From Hoeflea sp. (GTDB lineage Bacteria; Pseudomonadota; Alphaproteobacteria; Rhizobiales; Rhizobiaceae), in contig NZ_JAUXOD010000119.1 of NCBI RefSeq assembly GCF_030682515.1, positions 1 through 38,205 on the forward strand: 38,205 bases of DNA, read 5' to 3'. Position 1 is the first letter of the stretch; each line of letters begins with the position of its first letter. The notes beneath the pieces were generated by a model, which saw only the letters and a program-made list of their open reading frames with translations, made no database searches and was not told the DNA's origin. Positions 1,525-24,520 of the stretch are shown here, one piece after another. The translations under genes were made by a program, and so were the position numbers.

Positions 1525-2217
1525 TCAAGTGCGTGCTTTCTCAAAGGCCGCCCAAGCCACTTCGAAGTCCGTGAAATCAAAGCCCGGCGCGCGGGCCGGG
1601 TCGAGGACCAGGCGCTCGGTCTCCTGCAACTTTCGGATGGCGGTTGCGAGGGAACCTCTCACGTCGGGCGGGACGACCACGGCGCCGTGTCTGTCGGCAT
1701 GGACAAGATCGCCCTGGTGAACCTCCAGCCCCATCACACGCACAGGCTGGCCGACGGAGCGGACATGGACGAAGCCATGGCTGGGACCCACGCTGCCAGC
1801 GATCACGGGAAAGCCCTGCGGCAGGTCGCCCAGATCGCGGACGACCCCATTGGTCAGCGCCCCCGACAGGCCAAAGCCCTTGTGGATCGTGGTGTTGACT
1901 TCGCCCCAATAGGCGCCGATGCAGTTGGGATAATCCAGATCCTCGATCACGGCGACACAAGGTCTGGGCGCGTCAAACATCGCCCTGTAGTAAGCCATGC
2001 GGCGGGCCCTGATCACCTCGGGCTGTTCGGTCGGGGGGGCCAGAGCCGCAATCTGGGCGGTGGCGGCATAGCCCACGACCGCAAGTCCCGGCTCGGTGCA
2101 GACCATCGTGCCTCGGGTAAAGCCCTGGAAGCCGCGCTTGCCTTGCACCACCTCGATGGCGTTGCAGACCGTCGGCGTGTCGACACGCGACAGAAGATTG
2201 AACAGGTCGTCGTCCAT
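1525..2217 (-). CDS. RraA-like / HMG-CHA aldolase family protein
   Basis: This 230-residue protein belongs to the RraA fold, which includes 4-hydroxy-4-methyl-2-oxoglutarate/oxaloacetate-type class II aldolases and decarboxylases that use a divalent metal. The family signature is present: Gly105-Glu106, then Arg127-Asp128-x2-Asp131, where the Arg binds the pyruvyl carboxylate and the Asp holds the metal. The C-terminal GDLVHADRHGAVVVP segment is also typical. The start ATG overlaps the stop of the upstream hydrolase (TGATG), so translation is coupled. As the last gene of the 13-gene operon it probably performs the final C-C cleavage or decarboxylation yielding a pyruvate-type product; that role is inferred. 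RraA proteins that only inhibit RNase E are shorter (about 160 residues). Confidence 0.85.
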   Translation of the reverse strand: MDDDLFNLLSRVDTPTVCNAIEVVQGKRGFQGFTRGTMVCTEPGLAVVGYAATAQIAALAPPTEQPEVIRARRMAYYRAMFDAPRPCVAVIEDLDYPNCIGAYWGEVNTTIHKGFGLSGALTNGVVRDLGDLPQGFPVIAGSVGPSHGFVHVRSVGQPVRVMGLEVHQGDLVHADRHGAVVVPPDVRGSLATAIRKLQETERLVLDPARAPGFDFTDFEVAWAAFEKART

Positions 2218-2906
2218 CAGTCCTCCAGCCAGCGGCGCATCGCCGCCGTTGTTTCAATCGGGCGTTCGAGGGTGGGCAGATGGGCTGCGCCCTCAACGAT
2301 CACCAGCCGCGACTGCGGCATCAGTTGGTGCATCAACTCATGCCGGTCGCGCGGGCACAGCCGGTCCTCGGCCCCCATCAGAACCAGCGCCGGCCCCTTG
2401 AAGCGGGCAAGCTCCGCCTGGCGGTCCGCCCGGTCGCGCAGCGCGCGCGACTGGCGGCCAAAAACCTCGGGTCCAAGAGCCAGCGCCATGTCAAGGCACA
2501 GGTCGAGCACATCCTTGTTTTCCAGCCCATGGGCCAGGTAGTTGGGCTTCATCTCATCCCGCATCACCTCAGCAAGGCCGCCATTCAGCGCCCGGTCGAT
2601 CTGGGGGCCGCGCAGGGCCCGAACCTGGGGCAATTCGGCGCGCGGATTGGTGTCGAGAAGAGCCAGTCTTTCCACCCGTTCGGGCGCCTGGGCGAGCACT
2701 TCCATAGCCAGGATGCCGCCCATCGACAGCCCGGCCAAGGCAAAGCTGGGGGGAGCATCGCGCAACACATCGCGCGCGAGGCCGGTCATGGTGTCGTCCC
2801 CGGTGGGCAGCATATGGATGATGGCGCGCGGCTGCAGGGCGGCGGGAATGCCGCCCCACATGCGTGCGTCGCACATCATGCCGGGGATCAGGACCAGCGG
2901 TGTCAT
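2217..2906 (-). CDS. Alpha/beta hydrolase
   Basis: This 229-residue alpha/beta-hydrolase has a full triad: nucleophile Ser61 in GLSMGG, Asp181 in LMGAEDRLCP and His209 in GAAHLP. The N-terminal LVLIPGMMCD supplies the oxyanion-hole strand. It has no signal peptide and is cytoplasmic. The ATG at 2906 overlaps the stop of the MetE-like gene as ATGA. An in-frame extension of 32 residues upstream would lie inside that gene and lacks hydrolase features, so I rejected it. The family hydrolyses esters, lactones or C-C bonds of beta-diketones. In this operon a lactone or ester intermediate is plausible, but the substrate cannot be read from the sequence. Confidence 0.88.
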   Translation of the reverse strand: MTPLVLIPGMMCDARMWGGIPAALQPRAIIHMLPTGDDTMTGLARDVLRDAPPSFALAGLSMGGILAMEVLAQAPERVERLALLDTNPRAELPQVRALRGPQIDRALNGGLAEVMRDEMKPNYLAHGLENKDVLDLCLDMALALGPEVFGRQSRALRDRADRQAELARFKGPALVLMGAEDRLCPRDRHELMHQLMPQSRLVIVEGAAHLPTLERPIETTAAMRRWLED

Positions 2907-4024
2907 GAGACGCGGCGCGCCCCTTCCTTCAGCGTGGCAAGTTTGGCCCAGGCAATCTCGGGATCGACCGCACCAAAACCGGCAAAGGTCCCAAATCCGC
3001 AATCGCTGCCGGCGATCACGCGGTCCCTGCCCACAATCTCGGTGAACCGCTCCAGCCGCTGGGCGACGAGGTCGGGATGTTCGATGAAGTTTGTCGTCGT
3101 GTCCACCGCGCCTGGAACCAGCACCTTGTCGGAGGGAATCTCATCGGCACGGTCGCGGAACACCGTCCATTCATGCCCGTGACGCGGGTTGGCGGTCTCA
3201 AACAGCACATAGCGGGCAGGCACCGCCATCAGCAGCGAAAACACCTCCGCCATGCCTATGTCGCAGCAATGCGGGCCTTCGTAGTTTCCCCAGCAGATAT
3301 GCAGGCGGATGTTGTCACGCGGGAGGCCGTCCAGTGCGCGTTCAAGCGCCTGAACATGGGTCGCCGCCACGCGCAGGAAATCCTGATCGCTGAGATCGGT
3401 GAACAGCATGTGGCGCGACAACGCGAGGTCGGGGCAATCGAGCTGCAGGTCTAGACCTGCCTCCAGAATGGTGCGGTATTCCTCGCGCATCGCATCGGCC
3501 AGCGCATCCAGATAGGCCTGGCGATCGGGGTAATGGGCGTTCTGCAGGAAAAGGCTAATGACACCGGGCGAAGCCGCGTTCATGAAACCGCGCGCGACCC
3601 CATGTGCGGCCATCGCGGATTTCAGATTGGCAATGTCCTTTCTCAACTCGTCCTGTCCCCGGCTTTCCACGGGGCCCGTGCATTGGGGGCGCGCATAGGT
3701 CGGCGTCCCGCCCTGTTTCGCCAGCCGATCCAGAAAGGTCGGGAACATCTTGAGGTCCGCCGGCGCATTGCGCGGGGTGTCGCCGGAAAAGCCGGTATAG
3801 CGGTCCTTGACATAGGTCGCGTAGCTTATCTTGGAACATTCGCCATCGGAGACGATGTCGATGCCCGCCTGCTTCTGGCGGAGGACGTTTTCCGAAACCG
3901 CCGCCGTCATGCACGCATCAAATTCTGCGGGATCAAAGGCCTCTCCACGCTCGCGGGCAAAGAGGAAATCAACCACCGCCTGGCTGCGGGGCAAGGATCC
4001 GACATGGGTGGCAAGCATGCTCAT
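2903..4024 (-). CDS. MetE C-terminal-domain-like zinc methyl/alkyl-transfer protein
   Basis: This 373-residue TIM-barrel protein is related to the C-terminal half of cobalamin-independent methionine synthase and to epoxyalkane:coenzyme M transferase. The zinc ligands are all present: His242 and Cys244 (LHICWGN), Glu276 (LFETANP) and Cys342 (GSDCGFG). The N-terminal THVGSLPRS is the usual opening motif. It is half the length of MetE (about 750) and lacks the N-terminal barrel, so it is unlikely to be a normal methionine synthase. The family activates thiols for alkyl transfer, suggesting demethylation, ether or epoxide chemistry in this operon, which is inference. The start is the ATG at 4024 in TGATG with the cupin stop; an ATG at 4018 is an alternative. 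Confidence 0.85.
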   Translation of the reverse strand: MSMLATHVGSLPRSQAVVDFLFARERGEAFDPAEFDACMTAAVSENVLRQKQAGIDIVSDGECSKISYATYVKDRYTGFSGDTPRNAPADLKMFPTFLDRLAKQGGTPTYARPQCTGPVESRGQDELRKDIANLKSAMAAHGVARGFMNAASPGVISLFLQNAHYPDRQAYLDALADAMREEYRTILEAGLDLQLDCPDLALSRHMLFTDLSDQDFLRVAATHVQALERALDGLPRDNIRLHICWGNYEGPHCCDIGMAEVFSLLMAVPARYVLFETANPRHGHEWTVFRDRADEIPSDKVLVPGAVDTTTNFIEHPDLVAQRLERFTEIVGRDRVIAGSDCGFGTFAGFGAVDPEIAWAKLATLKEGARRVS

Positions 4025-4992
4025 CAAAGAAGCCTCCCCGTTGCACCCGCCGCGTCATCGGTGTTGATGACGCGGTAGAGACTTGCCTCGCCGGTCATTG
4101 CCGGGGCTAGCGCATGTTCCAGCCCCGGCGGGATGGCAGCCGTGTCGCCGGGATTGAGGACCGTCGTGCCGCCGGACCAGGACAGCCGCCAATGGCCACG
4201 CATCGGCATCAGCACCTCGTGACGGTTCAGGCTGTAGGGCGTATCGGGGATTGAAGTGCTCGACAAGAATTCGACCTCGAATCCCGGGCGGTCGCGCAGC
4301 TTGCCATGCGCGCCGATCACCTTCGCGGGCTGGCGGTCGGACAGGGACATCAGATCCCAGTAGCGGGCGACATGGTTCGGGATCACGTCCGCCGTGGTGG
4401 GTTCCGGGAAGGCCTTGAGTTCCTCATCCGTCAGGAGCGGCATCGGCGGCACGTCCGCGGGCAGGCTCTGGCCCTTCTTCGTGTCATAGAGCTTGCCGTT
4501 CTTGCCCAGGATCAGCCCGTAGTCCTTGGCATCGGTGATCACCTGCGGAGCCCAGATCACGCCGCCGCCGGCATCGTCGCCACCGAGGATCGCCATGATC
4601 ATCCCGTAGTCGGTGCCGACATTCTCGAACGCGCGGAAGATGCCGGTGGGGATGTTGAAGATGTCGCCTTCTTCGGCGATGAACTCTCCGGCGGTGCCCC
4701 AGCGGCCCCAGAAGAACCGCCAGCGGCCCTTGAGCACAAAGAACACCTCGGCGGTGCGATGCGAGTGCAGCGAGTTGCGGCAGCCCGGCGGCTGGCCTGC
4801 CGCGCCAATGTTGAAGCCGGGAGTATCCACGATATGGACGTGCTGATCGGGGCTTTCCGACACCCCTCCACCGATGATGGTGAAGTTCTCCTTGCGGTTC
4901 GAGCCCGGGGTATGGGCGTCGATGAAGGCGGTCTTGCAGGGGCGCAATTCGCCATAGCGGACGATGCGGGCTTCCATCTCGGCGGGTGTCAT
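4024..4992 (-). CDS. Bicupin protein
   Basis: This 322-residue protein has two cupin domains. Domain 1 (about residues 60-130) has a metal-type signature, His76, His78 and Glu82 followed by GRWRFFW and GDIFNIPTGIFRAFEN. Domain 2 (about 245-300) has RHEVLMPMRGHWRL and PGDTAAIPPGLEHAL, keeping the second cupin motif but without the HxH pair, so probably only domain 1 binds metal. The layout resembles gentisate/homogentisate-type dioxygenases and bicupin isomerases, but no specific family can be assigned. It is separated from the upstream SnoaL-type gene by 66 bp, the widest gap in the enzyme part of the operon, and is coupled to the MetE-like gene. A dioxygenase or isomerase role is possible. 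Confidence 0.82.
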   Translation of the reverse strand: MTPAEMEARIVRYGELRPCKTAFIDAHTPGSNRKENFTIIGGGVSESPDQHVHIVDTPGFNIGAAGQPPGCRNSLHSHRTAEVFFVLKGRWRFFWGRWGTAGEFIAEEGDIFNIPTGIFRAFENVGTDYGMIMAILGGDDAGGGVIWAPQVITDAKDYGLILGKNGKLYDTKKGQSLPADVPPMPLLTDEELKAFPEPTTADVIPNHVARYWDLMSLSDRQPAKVIGAHGKLRDRPGFEVEFLSSTSIPDTPYSLNRHEVLMPMRGHWRLSWSGGTTVLNPGDTAAIPPGLEHALAPAMTGEASLYRVINTDDAAGATGRLL

Positions 4993-5058
4993 CTGTAGTC
5001 TCCTGGTTTCGCCGGAGCGGGCCGGCGCAAGGTGTCATCGAAGGAATGGTGGCGGTCT

Positions 5059-6033
5059 TTAGACCGCCCCGGTTGCGAGCAGGATTTGTCTCCAGATCGC
5101 AGTTTCGTCGAAAAGCGTATATTCGCGGCGCAAGCCCCAGGGTCCGAATTCGGCATGGGTTATGCCCAGCACATAAAGATCGGCCCCCGTGGGCGCGCCA
5201 AAGCGGCCCCACCCCGCATGCTTGCCATGCAGGCTCCACCGCACGGCCGCGCGTGGCGGCATTGTCGGGTCTTCGCGACCGATGACGTGGTGGATGGCAA
5301 AGGTCGCATCCGGCAGAGCCCCGCGCAGCGGCATCCAGAATCGGTCGGCGTCGCCCGGCCCGTGGCCGGTAACGCCTCCAGGATATTCCAGATGCGCCGC
5401 GCGGTCATAGCTGGCCGGGATGGCGGCCATGTCGGCTCCCATGACGCGGGTCAGGAGCTCGGCCAGCCGCGCGCCCCATTCGTTGTCATTCCCGCGCCCC
5501 TTGTAGGGGCCGGTGATGTCGGTGGCGGGCGACAGCGGCTTGGCGCAACGGTCCGGTCCGCCCTCACGCGCGATCTGGTCGCGGGTGAAGCCCAGCGGGT
5601 CCCAGCCCATCTGACGCACCACCGCGCCTTGGTCGCGCACCAGCCATTCGTCGTCTATCATGTTGGCCTTGGCCGCACAGTCGGCGATGATCCGGTAGAC
5701 GAGCCTTTTCCCCGTCGCCTTGCCATATTGCCCGTCGCCCAAATGCGTCGCGGTAGAAAGGATGCGGTGCGACGACATGAAGCCATCGTCCTCGTTTCCC
5801 GACCAGATCACATCCTCGCCCAACAGCGAGCGGTCTGGAAATTCGGCCAGCGTCGCAATCGTCGCGCCAATCACGCCCTGATTGCCGGTCGATACCCCGG
5901 CAGGCATGCGCACCACGATGTCAGGATGGTAGTAGCGGTGCAGGGTCGCGATGCCCCGATCTTCCCAAATCTCTTTGGTGATCCCGAGGATGTAGTCGGG
6001 GAAATCCCGGAACTTGGGGTCGAAGCCCTTCAC
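5059..6033 (-). CDS. Tandem NTF2/SnoaL-like protein, paralogue A
   Basis: This 324-residue protein consists of two NTF2-like (SnoaL-type polyketide cyclase/hydratase fold) halves. The first half contains IWEDRGIATLHRYYHPDIVVRMP and ends near residue 145; the second starts near 185 (EWGARLAELLTRVMG) and ends in ADLYVLGITHAEFGPWGLRREYTLFDE. It starts at GTG (6033) in a GTGA overlap with the LacI stop, with AAGGA 7 bases upstream. The SnoaL fold covers cyclases, isomerases, hydratases and small-ligand-binding proteins, so the chemistry is not predictable. It is the most divergent of three such proteins in this module, which is itself odd. Confidence 0.8.
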   Translation of the reverse strand: MKGFDPKFRDFPDYILGITKEIWEDRGIATLHRYYHPDIVVRMPAGVSTGNQGVIGATIATLAEFPDRSLLGEDVIWSGNEDDGFMSSHRILSTATHLGDGQYGKATGKRLVYRIIADCAAKANMIDDEWLVRDQGAVVRQMGWDPLGFTRDQIAREGGPDRCAKPLSPATDITGPYKGRGNDNEWGARLAELLTRVMGADMAAIPASYDRAAHLEYPGGVTGHGPGDADRFWMPLRGALPDATFAIHHVIGREDPTMPPRAAVRWSLHGKHAGWGRFGAPTGADLYVLGITHAEFGPWGLRREYTLFDETAIWRQILLATGAV

Positions 6034-7049
6034 GATCTTGTCCTTTCCTTGACCGAGCCGCGCGTGATCAGCGGGCCGTCGATGCGGATGCGGTTCGGGG
6101 CGGTCTCGCCCTCGATCTGGTTCAAGAGGATATCAACCGTCGCCTCGACCATTCGACGGACAGGCTGGCGGATGGTGGTCAGGTTGTAGCTGGGCCAGGC
6201 CGCCATCGGCACGTCGTCATATCCGACAACCGAAACATCATCGGGCACAGCCAAGCCCATTTCAAAGCGCAGCGTATCCATGACCGCAAAGGCCATGTGG
6301 TCGTTGCCCACGAAGATGGCATCGGGCTTGACCTGACCCGCAAACATGGTGCGCACCGCCTGCGAGGCCGCTTGGCGGGAATACATCCCGTCGATCATCG
6401 CATGCGGCTCCAGCCCGGCGTCGCGCAGGGCCTGCCCGAAACCCTCGGCCCGGTCGCGTCCTGTCGAAGACCCCTGCCAACCCATGACATGGGCGATGCG
6501 GCGATGCCCGGTCGCGATCAGGTGCCGAGCCGCACGCCGCCCGCCCGCTATATTGTCCGACGTGACCTCGGACAACCGGTCGTCGTCTTGCCCCCGGTTG
6601 AACATCACCACCGGAATGCCCGCCGAGGCGCAGCGCGTCGTCAGGTCGTTGGTCATGGCGACCGAGGCGGTGATGATGCCGTCCACCTGATAATCCAGAA
6701 GCTCAGCCATCACCTCGGGCACCCGCTCAGTCGAATTCTCCGCCATGAAGATCAGCACGTGATAGCCGCGTGCTTGAAGCGCCTGGCTCAAAAGCTCGAG
6801 GACAACCGGATAGAACTGGTTTTCCAGATAGGCCACGACCAGCCCTATGATCCGCGTCCGCCCCGTGATCATTGCGCGGGCCAGCGGATCAGGGCGGTAA
6901 CCCAGCTGCTCCGCCGCCGCCCGCACCTTTTCGACGGTGGTTTTTGAGGCGGAAGCCCCGGGCGTGAAGACCCGGCTGACGGCGGACTGGCTGACCCCAG
7001 CCAGCCGGGCCACATCCATTGCCGTGATTTTGGTTGGTTGTTCGTTCAT
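6030..7049 (-). CDS. LacI-family transcriptional regulator
   Basis: This 339-residue repressor has the N-terminal LacI helix-turn-helix (residues about 8-30, MDVARLAGVSQSAVSRVF), the hinge YRPDPLARAM and a periplasmic-binding-protein-like effector domain (about 65-335) ending in the usual VVGYDDVPMAAWPSYNLTTIRQP segment. It is embedded in the operon it most likely controls, overlapping both neighbours by 4 bases (ATGA upstream, GTGA downstream), so it would be autoregulated. Two LacI-type palindromes lie in the only large intergenic region of the module (14592-14631). The effector is probably the transported sugar-like compound or an early metabolite. Confidence 0.95.
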   Translation of the reverse strand: MNEQPTKITAMDVARLAGVSQSAVSRVFTPGASASKTTVEKVRAAAEQLGYRPDPLARAMITGRTRIIGLVVAYLENQFYPVVLELLSQALQARGYHVLIFMAENSTERVPEVMAELLDYQVDGIITASVAMTNDLTTRCASAGIPVVMFNRGQDDDRLSEVTSDNIAGGRRAARHLIATGHRRIAHVMGWQGSSTGRDRAEGFGQALRDAGLEPHAMIDGMYSRQAASQAVRTMFAGQVKPDAIFVGNDHMAFAVMDTLRFEMGLAVPDDVSVVGYDDVPMAAWPSYNLTTIRQPVRRMVEATVDILLNQIEGETAPNRIRIDGPLITRGSVKERTRS

Positions 7050-7810
7050 TCGGCGGTCCAGCCCCCGTCGACGATCAGATGCGTGCCCGTCACCATGGCC
7101 GAAGCATCCGAGGCGAGAAAGATCACGGGGCCCATCAGATCCTCGATTTCACCCACACGACCCAGCTTGATCTTGGACAGGATCCAGGCCCGGCGTTCGG
7201 GGATGGCAAGGGTCTGCTCGCCCAGCGGCGTGCGGATGAAGGTAGGGCAGAGCGTGTTGACGCGGATGCCATGCGCCGCCCATTCCAGCGCCATGGCTTT
7301 GGTCATGCCCTCGAGCGCGTGCTTGTTGGCGCAATAGACCGCCCGGTCCGGCCCGCCGACATGGCCCATCTGGCTGGAAACATTAATCAGGCTGCCTGGC
7401 TTGCCTGCGGCTATCAGGCCCCGCGCCACCTCGCGCGTCAGGAAATAGGCGGCGCGCAGGTTCAGGCTCATGGCGGCGTCATAGTCCTCGGGAGTGGTGT
7501 CGAGTGCTGCGGCATGGCGTGCCAGACCGGCCGAGTTCACCAGTAAATCGAAAGGGCCATGTGCGGCCACGGCTGCCGCGGTGGCGGCAAGATCGGTGAT
7601 GTCGAGCGCCAGCGCCTCGGCGCGGGCCCCGGTGGTGCGGACGGCATCCCGCACCGCTTCCAGTTCCGCCAGGCGGCGGGCCACCAATGTAACCTCGGCC
7701 CCAGCCTCGGCCAGCGCCGCAGTCGCACCAAGGCCGATTCCCGAAGAGGCGCCGGTGACAAGCGCGCGTTTGCCATCGAGACGGAAGGAGGGGGTGCGCG
7801 GCAGGGTCAT
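7046..7810 (-). CDS. Short-chain dehydrogenase/reductase
   Basis: This 254-residue classical SDR has the cofactor motif TGASSGIG (19-26), NSAG at 92-95, and catalytic Ser145/Ser146, Tyr159 and Lys163 (YCANK). The ATG at 7810 overlaps the stop of the upstream SnoaL-type gene as ATGA. A longer open frame to about 8284 is only the antisense-like extension into that gene. The enzyme would oxidise or reduce a hydroxyl/keto group with NAD(P). Residues ARRLAEL after strand 2 (VAR) hint at NADP preference, but this is weak. It probably works alongside the HisD-like dehydrogenase on successive alcohols of the imported substrate. Confidence 0.93.
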   Translation of the reverse strand: MTLPRTPSFRLDGKRALVTGASSGIGLGATAALAEAGAEVTLVARRLAELEAVRDAVRTTGARAEALALDITDLAATAAAVAAHGPFDLLVNSAGLARHAAALDTTPEDYDAAMSLNLRAAYFLTREVARGLIAAGKPGSLINVSSQMGHVGGPDRAVYCANKHALEGMTKAMALEWAAHGIRVNTLCPTFIRTPLGEQTLAIPERRAWILSKIKLGRVGEIEDLMGPVIFLASDASAMVTGTHLIVDGGWTAE

Positions 7811-8847
7811 CGGCTCATCCCGTCGGGCACCGCCACGGGGCCGATGTTGCGCGCCTTGTTGAATTCCCGCATCCGCCCCAGCACGTCGACCCCAATCTGC
7901 GCCCACATGTCCAGAAGATCGACGAGAACCCAGTTTTCGCGGATCAACCCGCCTTCCATCCGCCAGAAATCCAGGCTTCGCAAGGTGATGGGCTGGCCGG
8001 CGGGCGCGATGCCCAGCCAGCCATCGCGGGTGATGGTCAGGCGCATGTTGGGCCAGCCGGTTTCGCAGACATATTCCCCTTCGGCAATCCAGTGGCTCAT
8101 CAGCCCCCCGGTATCCAGGCCCCGGTCCGGCATGGCGCCCAGGAAGGGGATCTGGTGCCAGTTCCGGAACCCCGAAATGCCGCGCATCGTGCCGATGCCT
8201 GCAGGCCCGTACCAGTTGAAACGCGGGTGCCAGAAGCGCGGCAAGTCCATCACATTTGGGTCCGGGTCGGCCGGGTGCCGGCACAACTCGGTCAGCATGG
8301 CCAGCACATGCGCCATCGTGGCGCTGCCGTCGCCCGAGGCCACGAGCCCGTCCCCGGTCATCGGCGCAGGGGTGGCGATGAAGGCCCCGAGCTGCGGGCC
8401 CATCGGCCAGACGCCCGCCTGCATCATCAGTTCGGGTATATCCCAGATCGCCTGCATCTCGACGATCCTGCCCCCCTCAAGGCGGAAGTACTCGTGATAC
8501 CGCATGTGGGCCAGATGCCCGGTCGGGCGGATGTCGAGAAAGGGGGCAAGGAAGGTGCCGATATAATTGCCCATGCAACCGACCCAGTCCTGCCCCTCCG
8601 GCGTTGTGCCCGCCAGCACGATCATGTCACGGCGTTCGAGATCGGGCATCGCCGCCAACAAGGGCGAAAGGGCGCGGTCATGGAGCGCGCCGGGACCGGT
8701 CATCTCGCCCAGGGGATGGCAAAGCCGGATCAGCGCGTCCGGCGCAAAAGCTTCGCTCAGCGCAGGTTTCAGATTTTCCTGGCTTGCTGTCTCCAGCGCC
8801 TTGCGAAGCGGCGCGATGGAGGCCTTGAGATGGGATGCAGATGTCAC
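7807..8847 (-). CDS. Tandem NTF2/SnoaL-like protein, paralogue B
   Basis: I chose the GTG at 8847, giving 346 residues, because AAGGA lies 7 bases upstream; the frame is open further up to an ATG at 8877, which would overlap the HisD-like gene. The protein has two NTF2-like halves and is clearly homologous to the divergent protein at 14678-15820. Shared stretches include HP(R/K)xxWYGPxGIGTxRGxxGF and LIRENWVxxDxLxxxxQIGxDxLxRM. The RENW and QAGVWP motifs recur in corresponding places. It overlaps the SDR gene by 4 bases. Its role is unknown; the fold suggests a cyclase, isomerase, dehydratase or hydratase acting on a small polar metabolite. Confidence 0.82.
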   Translation of the reverse strand: MTSASHLKASIAPLRKALETASQENLKPALSEAFAPDALIRLCHPLGEMTGPGALHDRALSPLLAAMPDLERRDMIVLAGTTPEGQDWVGCMGNYIGTFLAPFLDIRPTGHLAHMRYHEYFRLEGGRIVEMQAIWDIPELMMQAGVWPMGPQLGAFIATPAPMTGDGLVASGDGSATMAHVLAMLTELCRHPADPDPNVMDLPRFWHPRFNWYGPAGIGTMRGISGFRNWHQIPFLGAMPDRGLDTGGLMSHWIAEGEYVCETGWPNMRLTITRDGWLGIAPAGQPITLRSLDFWRMEGGLIRENWVLVDLLDMWAQIGVDVLGRMREFNKARNIGPVAVPDGMSR

Positions 8848-8857
8848 GGTGATGTCC

Positions 8858-10168
8858 TTACTCGGCGGCTTCGCCATAGGGAACGTTCCGTCCCCCATAG
8901 CGTCGGACGCGGATGTTGCATTGTTCGGCATGGCCGATGAAGCCTTCCAGCATGCATAGCCGCGAGCCGTATTCGCCGATCAGCGCTGCTGCCGCATCCG
9001 TCGTTACACGCTGATAGGAATGGGTCTTGAGGAACTTGCCGACCCAAAGCCCGCCGGTGTAGCGCCCGGCCTTCTTCGTGGGCAGGGTGTGATTGGTGCC
9101 AATCACCTTGTCGCCATTGGCCACGTTGGTGCGAGGGCCAAGGAACAGCGCGCCGTAGCTGTGCATGTTATGAAGATACCAGTCGTCGCGGTCGGTCATC
9201 ACCTGCACATGCTCATAGGCCATGTCATTGGCAATGGCGAGCATCTCGTCATGCGTGTCGCAGAGGATCACCTCGCCATAGTCGCGCCAGCTGACTGAGG
9301 CCGTGTCGCGGGTGGGCAGGATGGCGAGCAGCCGGTCGATCTCGGCCATCGTGCCCTCGGCCAGCCTGCGGGACTTGGTGATCAGGCAGGCTGGAGAGTT
9401 GTAGCCGTGTTCCGCCTGACCCAGAAGGTCGGTCGCGCAGAGTTCGGCGTCGACGGTGTCGTCGGCGATCACCATGGTTTCCGTCGGGCCGGCGAAAAGG
9501 TCGATGCCGACGCGCCCGTAAAGCTGGCGCTTGGCTTCGGCGACAAAGGCGTTGCCGGGGCCGACCAGCATGTCCACCGGCTTGATCGTCTCGGTCCCGA
9601 GCGCCATGGCGCCGACGGCCTGAATGCCGCCCATGACATAGATCTCATGCGCCCCGCCCAACTGCATGGCGGCGACGATGGCCGGGTGCGGTGCGCCATT
9701 GACCGGGGGGGCCGAGGCGACGATGCGGGGCACGCCCGCGACCTGAGCGGTCAGCACAGACATGTGCGCGCTGGCGACCATGGGGAACTTGCCGCCCGGC
9801 ACGTAGCAGCCGACCGACTGCACGGGGATGTTCCTGTGACCCAGGATTACCCCCGGCACGGTCTCCACCTCGATATCCGTCATGCTCGCCCGCTGCGCCT
9901 CGGCAAAGCGGCGGATCTGGGTCTGGGCGAAACGGATATCCTCCATGTCACGCGCCCCGACCTTCTGCATCGCGGCCTCGATCTCCGACGGCGTCAGCCG
10001 GAACGACGGCGCGGCATAGCCGTCGAACTTTTGCGAAAGATCGCGGACGGCGGCGTCGCCGCGCGTCTCTATATCCGTCAGGATGGCTTCGACGGTCGCG
10101 CGGACCTTCGCGTCATCTTCAGCGCGGGCCTCGGCCGGCTTGCCGGATTTTAGGTGCTGGATGGCCAT
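8858..10168 (-). CDS. Histidinol-dehydrogenase-like alcohol dehydrogenase (HpsN type)
   Basis: This 436-residue zinc- and NAD-dependent enzyme belongs to the HisD superfamily. Zinc ligands correspond to Gln251 and His254 (GQAEHG), Asp353 ([10 protein letters not shown]) and His413, and the catalytic Glu319-His320 pair (YEHVQV) is present. It sits in an ABC-transporter/sugar-type catabolic operon with no other his genes, so histidine biosynthesis is unlikely. The best known relative of this shape is HpsN, sulfopropanediol 3-dehydrogenase, which oxidises a terminal alcohol to the acid in two steps. Whether the substrate here is a sulfonate or another polyol is open, since no sulfonate lyase is present. 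The start ATG has GAGGA 7 bases upstream. Confidence 0.88.
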
Positions 10169-10178
10169 TTCGGTTTCC

Positions 10179-11228
10179 TCAGGTCGTGGTCAGCCGAGCG
10201 CCGGTGGTGGCGTCGAACAGATGGCAGATGCGGGCGGGGACATGGATGGCAATGGGCTGGCCGATCTGGCCGGCATAGTCCTTGGCGGCCTTGACGGCGA
10301 CAAGCGCGCTGCCGGCCTGAACGGTTGCCATGGAGGCGTCGCCCAGAAGTTCCATCGAATAGATCGACGCAGCTATCTCGCCGGTCGCGGCAAGGGCGGC
10401 GTCCTCGGCGCGAAAGCCCAGGGTCAGCGGGCCGTCGGGGCCGGACAGGCCGGGGATGCGAGTGTTCTCGGCCTCGAACACGCCGGCGGTCAGCACGCCC
10501 TGGATCAGGTTCATCGCCGGATTGCCGATAAAGCCGGCGACAAAGATATTGGCCGGGCGGTCATAGATCTCCAGGGGCGTGCCGATCTGCTGCACCTCGC
10601 CCCGGCTCATCACCACCACGCGGTCGGCGAGCGTCATTGCCTCGATTTGGTCATGCGTCACATAGATCGTCGTCGTCTTCAGCTCGTGATGCAGGTTCTT
10701 GATCTGCGCCCGGGTCGAGACGCGCAACTTGGCGTCAAGGTTCGACAGGGGTTCGTCCATCAGGAAGACCTTGGGCTTCCGGACAATCGCCCGGGCTAGT
10801 GCCACCCGCTGGCGCTGGCCGCCCGACAGGGCTGCGGGTTTGCGGTCGAGGAATTCCGTGAGTTCCACTGTCGCCGCCGCACGCATCACCCGGTCGTGGT
10901 GTTCGGCCTCGGGGATGCCGCGCACCTTGAGGGGGAAGCGGATGTTCTCATAGACCGTCATGGTGGGGTATAGACCGTAGGACTGGAACACCATGGCGAT
11001 GTCGCGGTCCTTGGGTTCCAGATCGTTCACGCGCTTTCCGCCGATCAGGATATCGCCTTCGGTTGCGTCCTCCAGACCCGCGATCATCCGCATCGTCGTG
11101 GTCTTGCCGCAGCCCGATGGGCCGAGAAGCACCAGGAACTCGCCATCCCCGATATGCAGATCCATCGGTTTCAGGCCGACGAAGGTGCCCCACCGCTTGG
11201 TCAGGCGTTGCAGCTGGATATCGGACAT
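10179..11228 (-). CDS. ABC transporter ATP-binding protein (MalK/UgpC type)
   Basis: This 349-residue ATPase energises the carbohydrate-type (CUT1) transporter. It has Walker [10 protein letters not shown] (36-44), signature LSGGQ (134-138), Walker B with Asp158-Glu159, and H-loop His192. A C-terminal regulatory OB/TOBE region of about 110 residues follows, as in MalK and UgpC. It starts 3 bases after the stop of the MalG-type permease and is followed after 10 bases by the HisD-like gene, linking import with metabolism in one transcript. It acts at the inner face of the cytoplasmic membrane. Confidence 0.96.
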
Positions 11229-11231
11229 GAT

Positions 11232-12119
11232 CTATCCTTTCACGGCGCCGGCGGTCAGCCCGCTGACGATCTGGCGCTGGAAGAACATCACCAGCACGAA
11301 GAGGGGGGCGGTGGCTGAAACCACGGCCGATACGGCAAACATCACATTGCCCTTGGTCTGCGTGGTGCCAAGGAAGGAGGCGATCTTGGGGATCATCGTC
11401 TGGTTTTCCTGATTGAGCAGCATCGCCGTCACCGCAAAGTCGTTGTAGGCGAGCAGGAAGCTGAACAGCCCGGTGGTGATCACGCCCGGCCACATCACCG
11501 GGATGATGACCAGCCGAAAGGCCTGGAACCGGGAGCAGCCATCGACCATGGCGCTTTCATCGAGATCCTTGGGGATGTTCTGGAAGAACGAGGTCAGCAT
11601 CCACAGCGTGAAGGGCTGGTTGATCGCGACCAGCACGATGATCGCGGTCGGCAGATGGCCCCACAGGTTCCACTGGTAGAACGGCAGGAGGTAGCCCGAC
11701 ACCAGCGTCACATGCGGCATGGCGCGGAACACCAGCGCCACGATCAGGATCCAGAACACATAGCGGTAGCCCGACCGCGCCAGCGCATAGCCGCCCAGCG
11801 TGCCGAAGGTCAGCGAGATGGTGACGACCGAGACGACAACGATCAGCGTGTTCAGCGCCGCGCGCCAGAACTCGTTCAAGACCCAAGCGCCTTCATAGCC
11901 TTGGCCGGTGAAAGACCCACCGGTCTCGACCTGCGTCAAGGGTCCGGTCAGGGCATTGCTCCAGTCGGCCTTGGAAAAGAAGTCCCCTTCGACCTTGAAG
12001 CTGCCCCAAAGCGTCCAGAGGAACGGAAAGGCGGCAATCACGAGCCACAGGATCAGGAGCCCGACCAGCAGGGCCTGCAGCGGAAAGGGGCGGCGGTCGG
12101 CGATCCTGGCAGCCATCAT
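11232..12119 (-). CDS. ABC transporter permease (MalG type)
   Basis: This 295-residue inner-membrane protein has six predicted hydrophobic segments, starting with LLVGLLILWLVIAAFPFLW. It has the cytoplasmic EAA loop DESAMVDGCSRFQAFRLVIIP that docks on the ATPase. An inserted periplasmic loop of about 50 residues after the first membrane segment is longer than in MalG. I chose the ATG at 12119, which forms ATGA with the MalF-type stop; a second ATG follows directly. It forms the translocation pore with the neighbouring permease. Confidence 0.93.
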   Translation of the reverse strand: MMAARIADRRPFPLQALLVGLLILWLVIAAFPFLWTLWGSFKVEGDFFSKADWSNALTGPLTQVETGGSFTGQGYEGAWVLNEFWRAALNTLIVVVSVVTISLTFGTLGGYALARSGYRYVFWILIVALVFRAMPHVTLVSGYLLPFYQWNLWGHLPTAIIVLVAINQPFTLWMLTSFFQNIPKDLDESAMVDGCSRFQAFRLVIIPVMWPGVITTGLFSFLLAYNDFAVTAMLLNQENQTMIPKIASFLGTTQTKGNVMFAVSAVVSATAPLFVLVMFFQRQIVSGLTAGAVKG

Positions 12120-13141
12120 GCCGTCCTTCCAAAGGATTTCCAAGTGCGGATGATCACCGGCGACAACAGGACGACAATGCCCAGGATGGTCAGGACCGAG
12201 GTCGCGGCCGCCGACGATAGAAGCTGGTTCGTCGAACTGAGATCGGAATAGATGAAGTAGCTAAGGCTCTTCGCATGGGCCCCGGCATTGAAGCTGACGA
12301 TCGGCTCGAACACCCGGAAATTGTCCATGATCTTGATCAGCAGCAGGAATGTGGTCAGCGGCAAGAGATGCGGGATGATCACGAAACGCAGCCTTTGCCA
12401 GCGGGTCGCCCCGTCAATCATTGCCGATTCCAGCGTGTCCTGAGGGACTGTCTGCAACCCGGCGTAATAGACCACGAAGGCGAAGGGCGCCGAAGCCCAG
12501 ACGCCATAGACGATCAGCATGATCCACATCAGTGGCGTCGAGGCCTTGATCGACAGGTCCGGGTCGCCCGACATCGACTGGAGCACCGCGCCCAGGATGC
12601 CGCGCGCATCCACCATCCAGAACAGGATTAGCGCACCAACCAGCGGCGTCACGATCATCGGAAGCAGCGAGAAGAAAATCGCCGGCCCGCGCAGCAGCCG
12701 AGGGATAGCATTAACCGACAGCGCGATGGCAAAGCCCAGCAGGATCGACAAGGGCGTGACGAAAGCGGTGTAGGTCAGCGTGAAGGCAAGCGCCCCGTAG
12801 AAGGGTAGGTTCATCACCCGGCTCAGGAACGCCCCTACTCCAGGGGACGCGGACCAGATCTCGGCGATCTCGTCTGTCGCCAGATGGCTGCGGTCGGTGA
12901 AGATGCCCGCCCCGACGAACCGGCCCATGGGGGCTCCCTCGCTGAGTGCCCGGGTCGCCTCGACATCGATGATGGTTGATTTGGTGCAGCCGAAAACGTT
13001 GCAGCTCTCGACCTCGCGGATCACCTGCTCATGCGGCGCATAGACCGACTGGATCAGCACAGACACAATCGGCAGGGCGATGAAGAGCAGCATCGCTGTT
13101 GCCGAAGGCAGGATGAACCACAGGAATGTCTTGTGCTTCAT
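12116..13141 (-). CDS. ABC transporter permease (MalF type)
   Basis: This 341-residue inner-membrane protein starts with the segment FLWFILPSATAMLLFIALPIV. A periplasmic region of about 80 residues follows, with two cysteines (SCNVFGC) that could form a disulfide, then five more membrane segments. The EAA loop is LESAMIDGATRWQRLRFVIIP. The ATG at 13141 has GAGGGG about 6 bases upstream; the open frame extends 17 codons further without support. It is preceded by a 127-bp gap holding a strong hairpin and overlaps the next permease by 4 bases. Confidence 0.93.
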   Translation of the reverse strand: MKHKTFLWFILPSATAMLLFIALPIVSVLIQSVYAPHEQVIREVESCNVFGCTKSTIIDVEATRALSEGAPMGRFVGAGIFTDRSHLATDEIAEIWSASPGVGAFLSRVMNLPFYGALAFTLTYTAFVTPLSILLGFAIALSVNAIPRLLRGPAIFFSLLPMIVTPLVGALILFWMVDARGILGAVLQSMSGDPDLSIKASTPLMWIMLIVYGVWASAPFAFVVYYAGLQTVPQDTLESAMIDGATRWQRLRFVIIPHLLPLTTFLLLIKIMDNFRVFEPIVSFNAGAHAKSLSYFIYSDLSSTNQLLSSAAATSVLTILGIVVLLSPVIIRTWKSFGRTA

Positions 13142-13225
13142 GACGGCCCCTCTCGGACATGGGTTGTTTTTCGCCGCGCGGGGCGCGGGCAAGGCCGGCG
13201 TGACAGAGGGCCAATGGATGCAGGC

Positions 13226-13258
13226 GGGCCGATCGCATGCAAGGCTAGCGATCGGCCC
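13226..13258 (-). promoter_or_regulatory. Stem-loop between binding-protein and permease genes
   Basis: GGGCCGATCGC (13226-13236) and its exact reverse complement (13248-13258) make an 11-bp stem with an 11-base loop, 10 bases after the binding-protein stop. No T-run follows, so it is not a standard terminator. In this position a stable stem is known from other ABC operons to protect the upstream binding-protein message and lower permease expression; that function is inferred here. Confidence 0.8.
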
Positions 13259-13268
13259 AGCCCAGGAT

Positions 13269-14513
13269 TTATTGCAGGAATCCGCTTTCCTTGGCGGCGG
13301 TCACATAGGCGGCCTCGATATCGGCCAGCGCCTGCGCAGCATCTTCCTTGCCGGCCAGGAAATCGGCGATGTTGTCGCCCAGCGCGGTGTGCATGGCCCC
13401 CATGTAGGGCTCCATCGGATAGGGACGCGCACCGCCGGCGATGCTGGCGGAAATCCCCTGCGCTTCGGGCGACGGCGTATAGCCGTCCAGCAGCCAGACC
13501 GCCTGGCCCATGGTGTCTGCGGTCAGGATCGAAGGGGCGGTTCCTGCTTTCATGGCCAGGAATGTCGCCACCGCGTCTTCGTCCGAGATGTTGGTCGCGA
13601 CGGTCCAGCCGTCCCACCAAAGGGTCGTCGCCGGGAAGCTGTTGCCGCCCGCGGACGGCGCCGCGGCCGCGACCGTGTTCTCGGCGACGCCCGGCGCCGA
13701 ATCCTTGCCGTCCATCAACGCGCCTGCGCGCGAACCCCAGAGTGTCATGAGCGCGCAGTTGCCCGCCTCATACTCGGCAGTTGCGATATTGGAGTCGAAG
13801 GTCAGGTAGTCGGGGCTCATGTAGCCCGTCAGCGCCTTCATCAGTTCAAGCGCAGCCACGCCGTTTTCATTGTTGATTGCCGGCTCGGCAGTGCCTGGCT
13901 TGAAGAAGTCGCCGCCTAGGCCGAGATAGGTGTTGACGAACTCCTCGCCCAGGTTCCAGCCGGCCTTGTAGGTCGAGCAGAAGGGTGTCGCCATACCGCC
14001 CGCGCGGATCTTCTCTGCAGCGGCCAGAAGCTCGTCATAGGTTGCAGGTGCGGCAACGCCGGCTGCCTCCAGAAGGTCCTTGCGATAGAACAGATGCTGG
14101 GCATTGGCCATGAAGGCCACCGCCATCACCTTGCCGTCGATCGTGATGAGCTGGCTCTTGGGAATGTCGGCGCCATGGGCCGCGATCAGCTCGTCCAGCG
14201 GACGGATCAGCCCCGCGCTCATCAACGGCACGATCGAGGAGGAGGCTACGACGGCGGAGGTGTATTCGGCCGGATTGGCAGTCATGCCCGGCGCATTCAG
14301 CTTCTGATGGTCGGCGGTCAGATTGGACTTGACCTCGACCGCGCCGGTGGCACAGCCCGCCGCCGCATTGACGACGGTATGGATGGCGGGAAAATCGTTG
14401 CCGATGATCGAAACCTTGCCCGCGGAAATCCCGCAATCGGCATAGGCAGCGCCGGCAAACATGGTGGTGCCCAGAAGGGCGGACAGGGCAAGGCCCCGGA
14501 TAGACTTTGTCAT
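13269..14513 (-). CDS. Extracellular solute-binding protein, sugar type (family 1)
   Basis: This 414-residue periplasmic binding protein captures the substrate for the MalF/MalG-type permeases. Its signal peptide (about residues 1-25, ending AGAAYA) is followed by a mature start near DCGISAGKV. The body shows typical family-1 features: ADHQKLNAPGMTANPAEYTSAV, FYRKDLLEAAGV, and MTLWGSRAG. The ATG at 14513 has GGGAG upstream; 36 codons of open frame before it overlap the promoter and operator region and are not coding. As first gene of the operon it lies directly behind two LacI-type operators. The substrate is probably a polar, sugar-like compound, not identifiable from sequence. Confidence 0.93.
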   Translation of the reverse strand: MTKSIRGLALSALLGTTMFAGAAYADCGISAGKVSIIGNDFPAIHTVVNAAAGCATGAVEVKSNLTADHQKLNAPGMTANPAEYTSAVVASSSIVPLMSAGLIRPLDELIAAHGADIPKSQLITIDGKVMAVAFMANAQHLFYRKDLLEAAGVAAPATYDELLAAAEKIRAGGMATPFCSTYKAGWNLGEEFVNTYLGLGGDFFKPGTAEPAINNENGVAALELMKALTGYMSPDYLTFDSNIATAEYEAGNCALMTLWGSRAGALMDGKDSAPGVAENTVAAAAPSAGGNSFPATTLWWDGWTVATNISDEDAVATFLAMKAGTAPSILTADTMGQAVWLLDGYTPSPEAQGISASIAGGARPYPMEPYMGAMHTALGDNIADFLAGKEDAAQALADIEAAYVTAAKESGFLQ

Positions 14514-14591
14514 TGCGTTCTCCCTGACAAGCCCCGCGAACCTTGCGGGAATAACCGCTGTTGGCGCGGCAAGGATGAAGATAAGCGCAAG

Positions 14592-14607
14592 TTGCAAACG
14601 TATGCAA
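14592..14607. promoter_or_regulatory. LacI-type operator 1
   Basis: TTGCAAACGTATGCAA is a 16-bp near-palindrome (14 of 16 positions symmetric) centred on CG, the classic form of LacI/GalR-family operators. It lies between the divergent binding-protein and SnoaL-type genes, and its centre is 24 bp from operator 2. On the minus strand the half-site TTGCAT could be a -35 element with TATCTT/TTATCT as -10, so binding would block that promoter. Confidence 0.82.
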
Positions 14608-14615
14608 CAGATTTC

Positions 14616-14631
14616 TTGCATACGCTTGCAT
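14616..14631. promoter_or_regulatory. LacI-type operator 2
   Basis: TTGCATACGCTTGCAT is a less perfect palindrome, also centred on CG, sharing the TTGCA(T/A)AC half-site with operator 1. TTGCAT here, with CATAAG at 14639-14644 after 17 bp, is a plausible plus-strand promoter for the divergent SnoaL-type gene, so the site would overlap its -35 region. Confidence 0.75.
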
Positions 14632-14677
14632 TCATGTTCATAAGAGATCTGTCGGAATCAAGGCAAAGGAGATGGCA

Positions 14678-15820
14678 ATGCTGAGTGCAGGCTTCGACAG
14701 CGATCAAAGTCCGGATACGGGGCTGCGCCGGCAGGTGATGCAGCGGCTTTCCCAGCTGGCTGAGGCGGGATCCGATGGCCTGACCCGGGCGCTGGAGGCG
14801 CTTGCCGCGCCGGATTGCCAGTGGCGTGCGGCCCATCCGATGAACGAGATGACGGGAAACGAGGCGGCCGCCGCCCGGATATGGGGGCCGCTTCAGGCAG
14901 CCTTCGCAGATCTGGAACGGCGCGACACCATTGTTGTCGCCGGGCGCTATCAGGGTCGGACCTATGTGGCAGCGATCGGGCATTATTGCGCAACCATGCG
15001 GCATGACTGGCTGGGCATCCCGGCGACCGGCAAGACCATCTATCTGCGTTACGGTGAAGTCTGGCAGCTTGGCGAGAACGGCCGCGCCGTCCAGGCCAAT
15101 CTTTTGTGGGATGTCCTGGATGTCATGCGGCAGGCAGGCGTCTGGCCGCTGGCGCCCTCGCTGGGGGTCGAGGGGATGTGGCCCGGTCCGCTGACCGCCG
15201 ACGGTCTGCGCATGACGCCTTCCGACCCGGTCCAGAGCCGCGCCAGCCTCGAACAGACCTTGCGCATGCACAAATCGCTGGCCGAGTTCGATGACCACGC
15301 CATGCTTTCACGCGAGGCGCTGATCGGCATGCCGCAGCGTGACCACTGGCATCCCAAGATGATGTGGTATGGCCCGTCCGGGATCGGCACCACAAGGGGC
15401 CTTGACGGCTTTGTCGACGGACATCAGTTACCCTTCCGGGTCGCCTTCCATCGCCCGCAAGGAACCTTCGAAGAGGTCACCGCGGAACGCACCCGCCATG
15501 GCGCCGGCCATTATGTCCGCATCGGCGACGGCCCCTATTCGGTGACGGGGGGGTGGCCTTCGGTCTATGCCAGACACAATGGCGGCGGGTTCTGCGGGCT
15601 TCCCGCAAGCGGCAAACCGGTCTTTATGCGGGTGATGGATTTCTACCTGCACCATCAGGGGCTGATCCGTGAAAACTGGGTCCCCATCGACATGCTGCAC
15701 CTTCTGGGCCAGATCGGCATAGATCCCCTTGCCCGACTGCAAGAGGTCCTGCGACGATCAGCCAGGGCTCAGGATCGCGGGATTGTGCAGCACAACTCCG
15801 CCGTCTCGCCGAGCGCCTGA
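14678..15820 (+). CDS. Tandem NTF2/SnoaL-like protein, paralogue C (divergent)
   Basis: This 380-residue protein has two NTF2-like halves, homologous along its length to the product of 7807-8847 (WYGPSGIGTTRG, LIRENWVPIDMLHLLGQIG, DLERRDTIVVAG versus DLERRDMIVLAG). The start is decided by the ribosome site: AAGGAG ends 6 bases before the ATG at 14678, whereas the ATG at 14672 abuts it. It is transcribed away from the ABC operon and shares its operator region, so it is probably co-regulated by the LacI protein. No signal peptide. Function unknown; the conserved pairing of this family with the operon suggests an essential step handled by related enzymes or subunits. Confidence 0.85.
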   Translation: MLSAGFDSDQSPDTGLRRQVMQRLSQLAEAGSDGLTRALEALAAPDCQWRAAHPMNEMTGNEAAAARIWGPLQAAFADLERRDTIVVAGRYQGRTYVAAIGHYCATMRHDWLGIPATGKTIYLRYGEVWQLGENGRAVQANLLWDVLDVMRQAGVWPLAPSLGVEGMWPGPLTADGLRMTPSDPVQSRASLEQTLRMHKSLAEFDDHAMLSREALIGMPQRDHWHPKMMWYGPSGIGTTRGLDGFVDGHQLPFRVAFHRPQGTFEEVTAERTRHGAGHYVRIGDGPYSVTGGWPSVYARHNGGGFCGLPASGKPVFMRVMDFYLHHQGLIRENWVPIDMLHLLGQIGIDPLARLQEVLRRSARAQDRGIVQHNSAVSPSA

Positions 15821-16497: not shown

Positions 16498-18762
<2,265 letters not shown>

Positions 18763-18833
18763 CGGCCCACCAAACCAAACAGCCAAGCAGTCAGACAGGA
18801 AACGCCCGCGCGCGTTTGCAGAGGACGGATGCC

Positions 18834-19289
18834 ATGACCCTGGGTAGAGATGAGGACAAAATGGCCGGACCGGAGCCGCAGCCCACCCCGAGCATCCGGG
18901 TCCTGGTGGCAAAGCTCGGGCTGGACGGCCATGACCGCGGCGCAAAGGTGGTGGCGCGCATCCTGCGCGATGCCGGGATGGAGGTGATCTATTCGGGCCT
19001 CTACAAGACGCCGGCGCAGGTGGTCGATGCCGCCATCCAGGAAGATGTCGATGTCATCGGCGTGAGCCTGCTCTCCGGTTCGCACGTTCCGCTGTTTGGC
19101 GCCCTCTGCAAATCGTTGCGCGACCAGCAGGCTGACCACGTGCTTGTGGTGGCCGGCGGCGTCATTCCCGAGCATGACTACGATGCCTTGATCGAGAGCG
19201 GGGTCGACGCCATCATTCCCCAGGAAGCGGGCTCCGAACTGATCATCACGGCGATCCGCGACCTGGTCGCTGCGCGCGGGCGGATCTGA
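18834..19289 (+). CDS. hcmB: B12-binding small subunit of acyl-CoA mutase (HcmB-like)
   Basis: This 151-residue cobalamin-binding Rossmann-type domain has the base-off signature D31-G-H33-D-R-G36, Ser78-x-Leu80 and Gly108-Gly109. His33 would coordinate cobalt from below. It stands alone as in 2-hydroxyisobutyryl-CoA and isobutyryl-CoA mutases, rather than being fused to the catalytic domain as in methylmalonyl-CoA mutase. The ATG at 18834 has GAGGA 8 bases upstream; the ATG at 18861 also has an AGGA and would give 142 residues, closer to the known small subunits. It lies 71 bp after dgdA. Confidence 0.88.
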   Translation: MTLGRDEDKMAGPEPQPTPSIRVLVAKLGLDGHDRGAKVVARILRDAGMEVIYSGLYKTPAQVVDAAIQEDVDVIGVSLLSGSHVPLFGALCKSLRDQQADHVLVVAGGVIPEHDYDALIESGVDAIIPQEAGSELIITAIRDLVAARGRI

Positions 19290-19291
19290 CC

Positions 19292-20280: not shown

Positions 20281-20284
<4 letters not shown>
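19292..20284 (+). CDS. meaB: MeaB/ArgK-type GTPase, mutase chaperone
   Basis: This 330-residue P-loop G-protein loads and protects adenosylcobalamin in B12-dependent mutases. Motifs: Walker A GVPGGGKST (66-74), DPSSPYSGGAILGDRIRM (96 on), and ETVGVGQDE (158 on). The base-specificity motif, normally NKxD, reads SKSD (205-208), which is unusual and might weaken guanine selectivity. It starts with GTG two bases after the small-subunit stop and overlaps the large-subunit start as ATGA, so the three proteins are translationally linked, as in known HCM clusters, where the chaperone is called MeaH. Confidence 0.9.
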
Positions 20285-21972
<1,688 letters not shown>

Positions 21973-21982
21973 GGACCCGGTC

Positions 21983-24369: not shown

Positions 24370-24463
24370 CCGGTCCGGCGCCGGAACGCCCCTTCGTCCG
24401 ATCCGTGCCTTTGGACATGGCTTTCAGGCACCCGGATCGCGCGGGAGGAGATCGGACTTCAAT

Positions 24464-24486: not shown

Positions 24487-24520
24487 TGCTCTGGCAGCGG
24501 GTGTCATGCAGGAGGCTCAG

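Follow-up and report, generated by a model that had tools for sequence, protein, structure and literature searches.

Among described enzymes, those most comparable to the products of an operon in Hoeflea sp. are HpsN, the R-dihydroxypropanesulfonate (R-DHPS) 3-dehydrogenase; the 4-hydroxy-4-methyl-2-oxoglutarate/4-carboxy-4-hydroxy-2-oxoadipate (HMG/CHA) aldolases LigK and PcmE of the RraA family; cobalamin-independent methionine synthase and core-MetE; and the bicupins quercetin 2,4-dioxygenase and gentisate/salicylate dioxygenase. The operon lies in contig NZ_JAUXOD010000119.1 (positions 1 to 38,205, hereafter the window). Its HisD-like dehydrogenase shares with HpsN sequence kinship, the catalytic Glu-His pair, and the metal-site Asp and His, but has Lys-Phe-Pro instead of Arg-Tyr-Ser/Ala and other operon partners. 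Similarly, the MetE-like protein shares with methionine synthase the zinc ligands and the aligned residues presumed to form the homocysteine site, but is without the N-terminal domain and sits in a catabolic operon. The RraA-like protein shares with the HMG/CHA aldolases an Arg-Asp pair and an alignment to the structure 3noj, although it is a remote relative, whereas the bicupin shares the two-cupin fold and HxHxxxE motif of the dioxygenases but has Arg for the last motif His. Excerpts of the literature on RpHpsN give His-320 as the base, Asp-353 as binding the neighboring hydroxyl, and Arg-124, Tyr-125, and Ser-126 as lying near the catalytic center (PMC11131964), and the function of core-MetE homologues in aerobic marine bacteria is called questionable in excerpts of a second study (PMC12478193). 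We report that the Hoeflea operon is a real, conserved catabolic module with a gene set undescribed in the literature searched. In our best reading, it would import and degrade a methyl-ether six-ring natural product bearing an HO-C-CH2OH group.

Results

Thirteen genes on the minus strand (1525-14513) together with a divergent SnoaL gene (14672-15820) make up one unit (Table 1). Refined starts give seven overlaps among the operon genes, of either 1 nt (RraA/abH and MetE/bicupin) or 4 nt (abH/MetE, SnoaA/LacI, LacI/SDR, SDR/SnoaB, and permB/permA), with candidate starts for SnoaB at 8931, 8898, 8877 or later. The original prediction of a packed 13-gene operon of these families, dedicated to import and catabolism and conserved in its linkage, is upheld both by this layout and by a neighborhood comparison in which the set is kept in relatives and control open reading frames (ORFs) are not. 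The MetE-like protein was the query with which loci were drawn, the best 80 being kept; a scan of 84,980 species genomes with the same protein gave at least 574 confirmed relatives, not all of which are proven operons. At thresholds of at least 45% identity and at least 50% coverage, operon genes except SnoaC are present in between 30 (for the binding protein) and 80 (for MetE) of the 80 loci, the last count being so by construction because the loci were drawn with this protein. Among 18 control ORFs of at least 150 residues located elsewhere in the window, 17 occur in none of the 80 loci and an insertion sequence (IS) transposase occurs in one. Because the operon set recurs while these ORFs are all but absent from the loci, the linkage is not due to chance.

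Sixty-one of the 80 loci have at least 9 kb of upstream and 2.5 kb of downstream sequence. In this subset, counting HisD and the permeases at 45% identity or more and the other genes at 25% or more, we find SnoaL-A in 60 loci, the short-chain dehydrogenase (SDR) and the HisD-like protein in 58 each, the bicupin and the other SnoaL in 57 each, LacI in 56, the ABC permeases in 54, the hydrolase in 51, RraA in 44, and the binding protein in 33; two to four SnoaL copies are present in 55. SnoaC passes the 45%/50% threshold in only one of the 80 loci, yet is 66% identical in two genomes of the same genus. When 61 related genomes were searched with the MetE-like protein, 21 gave some match and eight (own genome included) a strong one; the protein is 70-77% identical in the seven others, and the strongly matching genomes have much of the set in the neighborhood, in an order and orientation that vary. 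When 398 genomes of the phylum were sampled, 25 (own included) reached an E-value of 1e-70 or better; identity is at least 68% in 15 of these, again counting the own genome, and the remainder are more distant relatives. In the MetE tree, the window protein groups with Microvirga and Tagaea with starred support, apart from the sole other genome of its genus in the tree; the operon clade has support of 87/93, which is not starred. The closest relative among the matches listed, at 90% identity, is from a Rhodobacter metagenome-assembled genome. Judging from the tree placement and this relative, the module seems to move between families. In three loci (L154, L155, and L115), the cluster contains a sodium-solute symporter and TonB receptors, and the operon-type ABC permease is unmatched. 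Clustering of the other ORFs in 87 loci gave three families present in at least five loci: a single-domain SnoaL (in 26), an antisense ORF (in 17), and an ORF resembling methyltransferases (in 9), all named by eye. The idea that some further recurring enzyme might identify the pathway was rejected on this result.

Two operator-like sites sit in the promoter region that separates the binding-protein gene from the divergent SnoaL gene (Table 1). In the 4.67-Mb draft genome, a search with TTGCAWWCGWWTGCAA at up to one mismatch finds this promoter and nothing else. At up to two mismatches, there are two matches in the window, against 0.02 expected, and 33 matches in 24 of the 80 loci, where simple shuffling in 500-base blocks gives 1.3. 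Of these 33, 27 precede a match to the binding protein, the ATPase, the HisD-like protein or a SnoaL protein by no more than 700 bp, and the site in locus L110 is about 21 bp from an amidohydrolase match. Four of nine further genomes contain exact operator matches, placed in three cases between a divergent ATPase gene and a SnoaL-like gene, and flanked in the fourth (G025) by a SnoaL-like gene on one side and weak matches to the binding protein and permease on the other. The promoter palindrome has the central CG expected for a LacI-controlled catabolic operon, and the operon is probably a LacI-controlled, separately regulated module. A sigma-70 promoter scan found two sites against 2.9 expected. 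As a separate observation, a second HisD-like paralogue (43-45%) is preceded by a LacI-type operator in L043, L044, L051, L056, L057, and L119; it is divergent from the operon HisD gene in five of these loci and is a farther gene in L119.

The solved proteins nearest to the HisD-like dehydrogenase are sulfopropanediol 3-dehydrogenases (E 4e-116), and Glu-319, His-320, Asp-353, and His-360 are kept in all 69 homologues. The Arg-Tyr-Ser motif of HpsN (Arg-Tyr-Ala in 8v35), however, is Lys-Phe-Pro in the operon family, with these residues present in 69, 68, and 69 of the 69 sequences, respectively. Given this replacement, the substrate probably differs from both DHPS and histidinol, and identity with HpsN was rejected on this motif. 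Another HisD paralogue, 50% identical, is encoded elsewhere in the same genome. For the SDR, the closest models are KduD and gluconate 5-dehydrogenase, all below cut-off. The RraA-like protein, aligned to 3noj, keeps the Arg-Asp pair, which we take to be the catalytic pair of HMG/CHA aldolase, in 57 of 57 homologues. An HpcH/HpaI aldolase occupies the place of RraA in five loci (L043, L051, L054, L056, and L057), and another is found behind the hydrolase or MetE gene in L154 and L155, which belong to other lineages; these replacement aldolases match GarL/HpaI models below cut-off, and L050 has both RraA and a farther HpaI-like stretch. An Amidohydro_2 gene is linked to the module in L121, L110, where it adjoins the operator, and L154, where its sole model match is L-fucono-1,5-lactonase, below cut-off.

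In the MetE-like protein, the zinc ligands His-243, Cys-245, and Cys-343 are present in 87 of 87 homologues and Glu-277 in 86; Ser-11, Glu-63, and Asp-197 are likewise found in all 87. Also kept are the positions aligned with Ile-437, Ser-439, and Glu-490 of plant MetE, which we assume to be homocysteine-binding residues. The protein scores below the cut-off of all five matching NCBIfam methionine-synthase models. A related MetE clade (47-51% identical) comprises Novosphingobium and Sphingobium (L123 and L177) and five genomes of one family. Members of this clade lie near a LigM-type gene in six of seven distinct loci (L123, L157, L167, L168, L169, and L177, but not L156), with L157 and L166, which coincide, counted once and the LigM-type gene in L177 identified from its annotation. 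All six LigM-linked loci have MTHFR and/or FolD genes, and L123 has LigAB. No LigM match was obtained in six loci with more distant MetE paralogues (L170-L175), and the MetE tree leaves a sister relation of the LigM-linked clade to the operon clade unsettled. Two side-by-side MetE-like matches, one 41-44% and the other 25-27% identical, were seen in L171, L173, and L174, and in L158 (8043-9515) a MetE-like gene (43%) is directly behind an ORF judged by eye to be an M81/MlrC-type peptidase.

The model of SnoaL-A has two fused NTF2-like domains (mean pLDDT 95); a fold search meant to fix the reaction returned the NTF2/SnoaL fold and did not tell the reaction. The bicupin keeps the HxHxxxE motif (His-76, His-78, and Glu-82 in 79 of 79 homologues), and its AlphaFold2 (AF2) model has a mean pLDDT of 84. 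VIA-align places it nearest to quercetin 2,4-dioxygenases, which are not set apart from other bicupins, and no sequence match in the PDB was found at E 0.01. Here too the fold search gave the fold only, the scores of dioxygenases, decarboxylases, and seed vicilins being no more than about 2 Z units apart.

Table 1. Features of the Hoeflea sp. operon and its divergent promoter (positions in the window)
Feature	Coordinates	Strand	Remarks
RraA-like (HMG/CHA-type) aldolase	1525..2217	-	PF03737 E 2.7e-16; R127, D128, G105, E106 in 57/57; aligned to CHA aldolase 3noj
Alpha/beta-hydrolase (abH), PcaD-like (far under PcaD cut-off)	2217..2906	-	Nucleophile S83 of GLSMGG in 63/63; start ATG 2906
MetE catalytic-domain (core-MetE-like) protein, putative homocysteine-dependent demethylase	2903..4024	-	PF01717; kept residues (see text)
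Bicupin, putative ring-cleaving dioxygenase	4024..4992	-	H76, H78, E82, R120 in 79/79; AF2 model; fold matches
Two-domain SnoaL/NTF2-like protein A	5059..6033	-	Domain matches; model mean pLDDT 95
LacI-family regulator	6030..7049	-	In 56/61 loci
SDR (best models KduD-like, below cut-off)	7046..7810	-	Start ATG 7810
Two-domain SnoaL/NTF2-like protein B	7807..8877	-	Start unsure, 8931 at most
HisD/HpsN-like dehydrogenase with K127-F128-P129	8858..10168	-	PF00815 E 1.1e-133; best solved relative sulfopropanediol 3-dehydrogenase
ABC transporter ATPase (UgpC/MalK type)	10179..11228	-	NF008653 445 bits vs cut-off 432
ABC permease (GlcU/MalG type)	11232..12119	-	Start ATG 12119
ABC permease (UgpA type)	12116..13141	-	Start ATG 13141
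Periplasmic binding protein (SBP_bac_1)	13269..14513	-	Start ATG 14513
LacI-type operator-like palindrome TTGCAAACGTATGCAA	14592..14607	.	Perfect to TTGCAWWCGWWTGCAA
Second operator-like site	14616..14631	.	2 mismatches
Divergent two-domain SnoaL/NTF2-like protein C	14672..15820	+	Domain matches and relatives

Elsewhere in the window, a Mutator-family transposase (51-1307) borders the downstream end of the operon, and a separate second module (16498-25639) encodes a LysR regulator, a class-III aminotransferase, a MeaB GTPase, a methylmalonyl-CoA-mutase-like protein, an AMP-dependent ligase, and a Peripla_BP_6 binding protein. An ORF of 561 residues (28408-30093) has two stretches matching the GntR helix-turn-helix and an FCD domain, and may represent two fused regulators.

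Discussion

Gene-set searches of open-licence PubMed Central literature gave no described pathway with this set, as anticipated in the original prediction, which had called the combination unfamiliar. Of the roles proposed there, that of the RraA-like aldolase gains from the conserved Arg-Asp pair and from the HpcH/HpaI aldolases that replace RraA in other loci, and thiol-dependent alkyl transfer by the MetE-like protein is in keeping with the retained zinc ligands; we infer, more narrowly, methyl transfer to homocysteine. A second oxidation by the SDR, rearrangement by the SnoaL proteins, and lactone opening by the alpha/beta-hydrolase, also proposed there, are conjectural. The LacI regulator with its operator and the proposed substrate are additions of the present work.

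The gene set would call for a substrate with a primary alcohol beside a hydroxyl group, a removable methyl group, a ring cleavable by a cupin, and a skeleton ending as a 4-hydroxy-2-oxo acid. All four features are present in 4-deoxygadusol, which we take to be a cyclohexenone with a 2-methoxy group, a 3-hydroxy group, and a C5 bearing both OH and CH2OH. Mycosporines or mycosporine-like amino acids (MAAs), degraded via this core, are therefore the best single reading of the substrate, albeit a tentative one that falls somewhat short of probable. The mycosporine cyclohexenone core and its methylation step are described in excerpts of PMC10057719. In the proposed route, the sugar-type ABC transporter would import the substrate and the SnoaL proteins might, as a guess, act as amine-releasing hydrolases that strip C1/C3 of their amino-acid substituents. 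The HisD-like enzyme would oxidize the C5 CH2OH group, beside the tertiary hydroxyl, to a carboxylate, and the MetE-like protein would move the O-methyl group to zinc-bound homocysteine, yielding methionine and a cyclic reductone (the 2-desmethyl core). Cleavage of the enol-one ring by the bicupin with O2 would then lead to CHA, perhaps by way of a lactone opened by the hydrolase, and the RraA-like aldolase would split CHA into pyruvate and oxaloacetate; in an alternative end, C2 would be lost as CO to leave citrate. The SDR has no place in this scheme, and the order of steps is a guess. In terms of formulae only, 4-deoxygadusol becomes C7H8O8 once its CH2OH is oxidized to COOH, the methyl group is removed, and O2 is added; this is CHA, the classic substrate of CHA aldolase. 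The lower part of the protocatechuate 4,5-cleavage (lig) pathway would presumably share the CHA intermediate and the aldolase with this route, but the operon's Pfam matches are without a LigAB-type dioxygenase and the proposed substrate is non-aromatic. Taken as a whole, a horizontally moving and complete mycosporine/MAA pathway, combining core-MetE-like demethylation onto homocysteine, reductone cleavage by the bicupin, and conversion of the C7 product to pyruvate and oxaloacetate (or to citrate with loss of CO), is possible rather than probable.

Several observations weigh against the mycosporine route. The RraA-like protein scores 33 bits against a cut-off of 304.5 for the CHA-aldolase (LigK/PcmE) equivalog, and RraA and HpaI are both missing from 15 of the 61 loci. 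The usual last metal-ligand His of the bicupin is Arg-120 in 79 of 79 homologues, so that the 3-His 1-Glu arrangement, which we take to be the metal site of quercetinase-type dioxygenases, is unmet, although other invariant His residues (51 and 53) might serve as metal ligand. Moreover, residues 21-30 and 43-47 of the bicupin are poorly modeled, the protein scores almost as high against seed vicilins and oxalate decarboxylases as against quercetinase, and the first Foldseek row is the manganese protein MncA. The MetE kin in sphingomonads could take methyl-folate from LigM instead of a methyl group from an ether, and the SDR and the fuconolactonase-like amidohydrolase of three loci suit a sugar-oxidation route just as well. 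The roles given to the SDR and SnoaL proteins are guesses, a direct tie of the operon to mycosporines by gene, ligand, or phenotype is absent, and the habitats of carriers are suggestive only. At up to two mismatches, the operator is missing from 56 of the 80 loci; this exact operator is therefore not universal, a point that bears on regulation and not on the chemistry of the substrate.

The main rival, which we regard as unlikely, has an O-methylated sugar or sugar acid as substrate. Here the SDR would make a lactone to be opened by the alpha/beta-hydrolase (or, in some loci, by the fuconolactonase-like amidohydrolase), SnoaL proteins would dehydrate or epimerize, the HisD-like enzyme would oxidize the primary alcohol, the MetE-like protein would remove the methyl group, and an RraA or GarL/HpaI-type aldolase would cleave a 2-keto-3-deoxy acid. 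The UgpC/MalK-type transporter is consistent with this route, as are the below-cut-off matches of the SDR to KduD and gluconate 5-dehydrogenase, of the L154 amidohydrolase (with linked homologues in L121 and L110) to fuconolactonase, and of the replacement aldolases to GarL/HpaI. Such a route, however, leaves the bicupin without an obvious job and does not call for several SnoaL copies, and no sugar-acid dehydratase family is among the Pfam matches of the set. Alternatively, the MetE-like protein might add a thiol to an intermediate, or move its alkyl group, in the manner of epoxyalkane:coenzyme M transferase (EaCoMT), to which it is presumably related, with no removal of methyl. Although the superfamily and zinc site are the same, we consider this improbable given that the positions aligned with the presumed homocysteine-binding residues are kept, and that, beyond the named set, the families in at least five loci are only the small SnoaL, the antisense ORF, and the methyltransferase-like ORF. 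More improbable still is that a core-MetE methionine synthase sits in the operon by chance as a backup under cobalamin limitation. This idea is offered for core-MetE homologues of cosmopolitan marine bacteria in excerpts of PMC12478193, which also report, however, that mutation of mtgCDE makes P. inhibens, with its one core-MetE homologue, a methionine auxotroph; in addition, the gene stays with the catabolic set, albeit in loci drawn with this gene. An operon for DHPS or another sulfonate, with the HisD-like protein as HpsN, is very improbable despite the solved relatives of that enzyme, given the Lys-Phe-Pro motif, the 50% identical paralogue elsewhere in the genome, and the finding of no further recurrent family of that pathway's size in the clustering, in which sulfo-lyase and hpsP were not searched by name. 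Homarine was also rejected as substrate, the homarine literature among the matches listed being without this gene set in title or start of abstract.

A search by title and start of abstract found no published bacterial breakdown of mycosporines, which is a weak test as most results were off-topic; in the 1990s, a marine Vibrio was reportedly seen to convert MAAs to mycosporine-glycine, with no genes given. The module is found in many Proteobacteria, pelagic marine ones among them, and its substrate is therefore probably common in nature. If mycosporines are indeed the substrate, a gap would be closed in the fate of a major class of ultraviolet-absorbing algal compounds, for which marker genes would become available, and the core-MetE homologues of aerobic marine bacteria may be given a job. 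To our knowledge, there is no precedent for a catabolic operon in which a methyl group of the substrate reaches methionine without B12, and such a route would be new even if the substrate were to be some other methylated compound.

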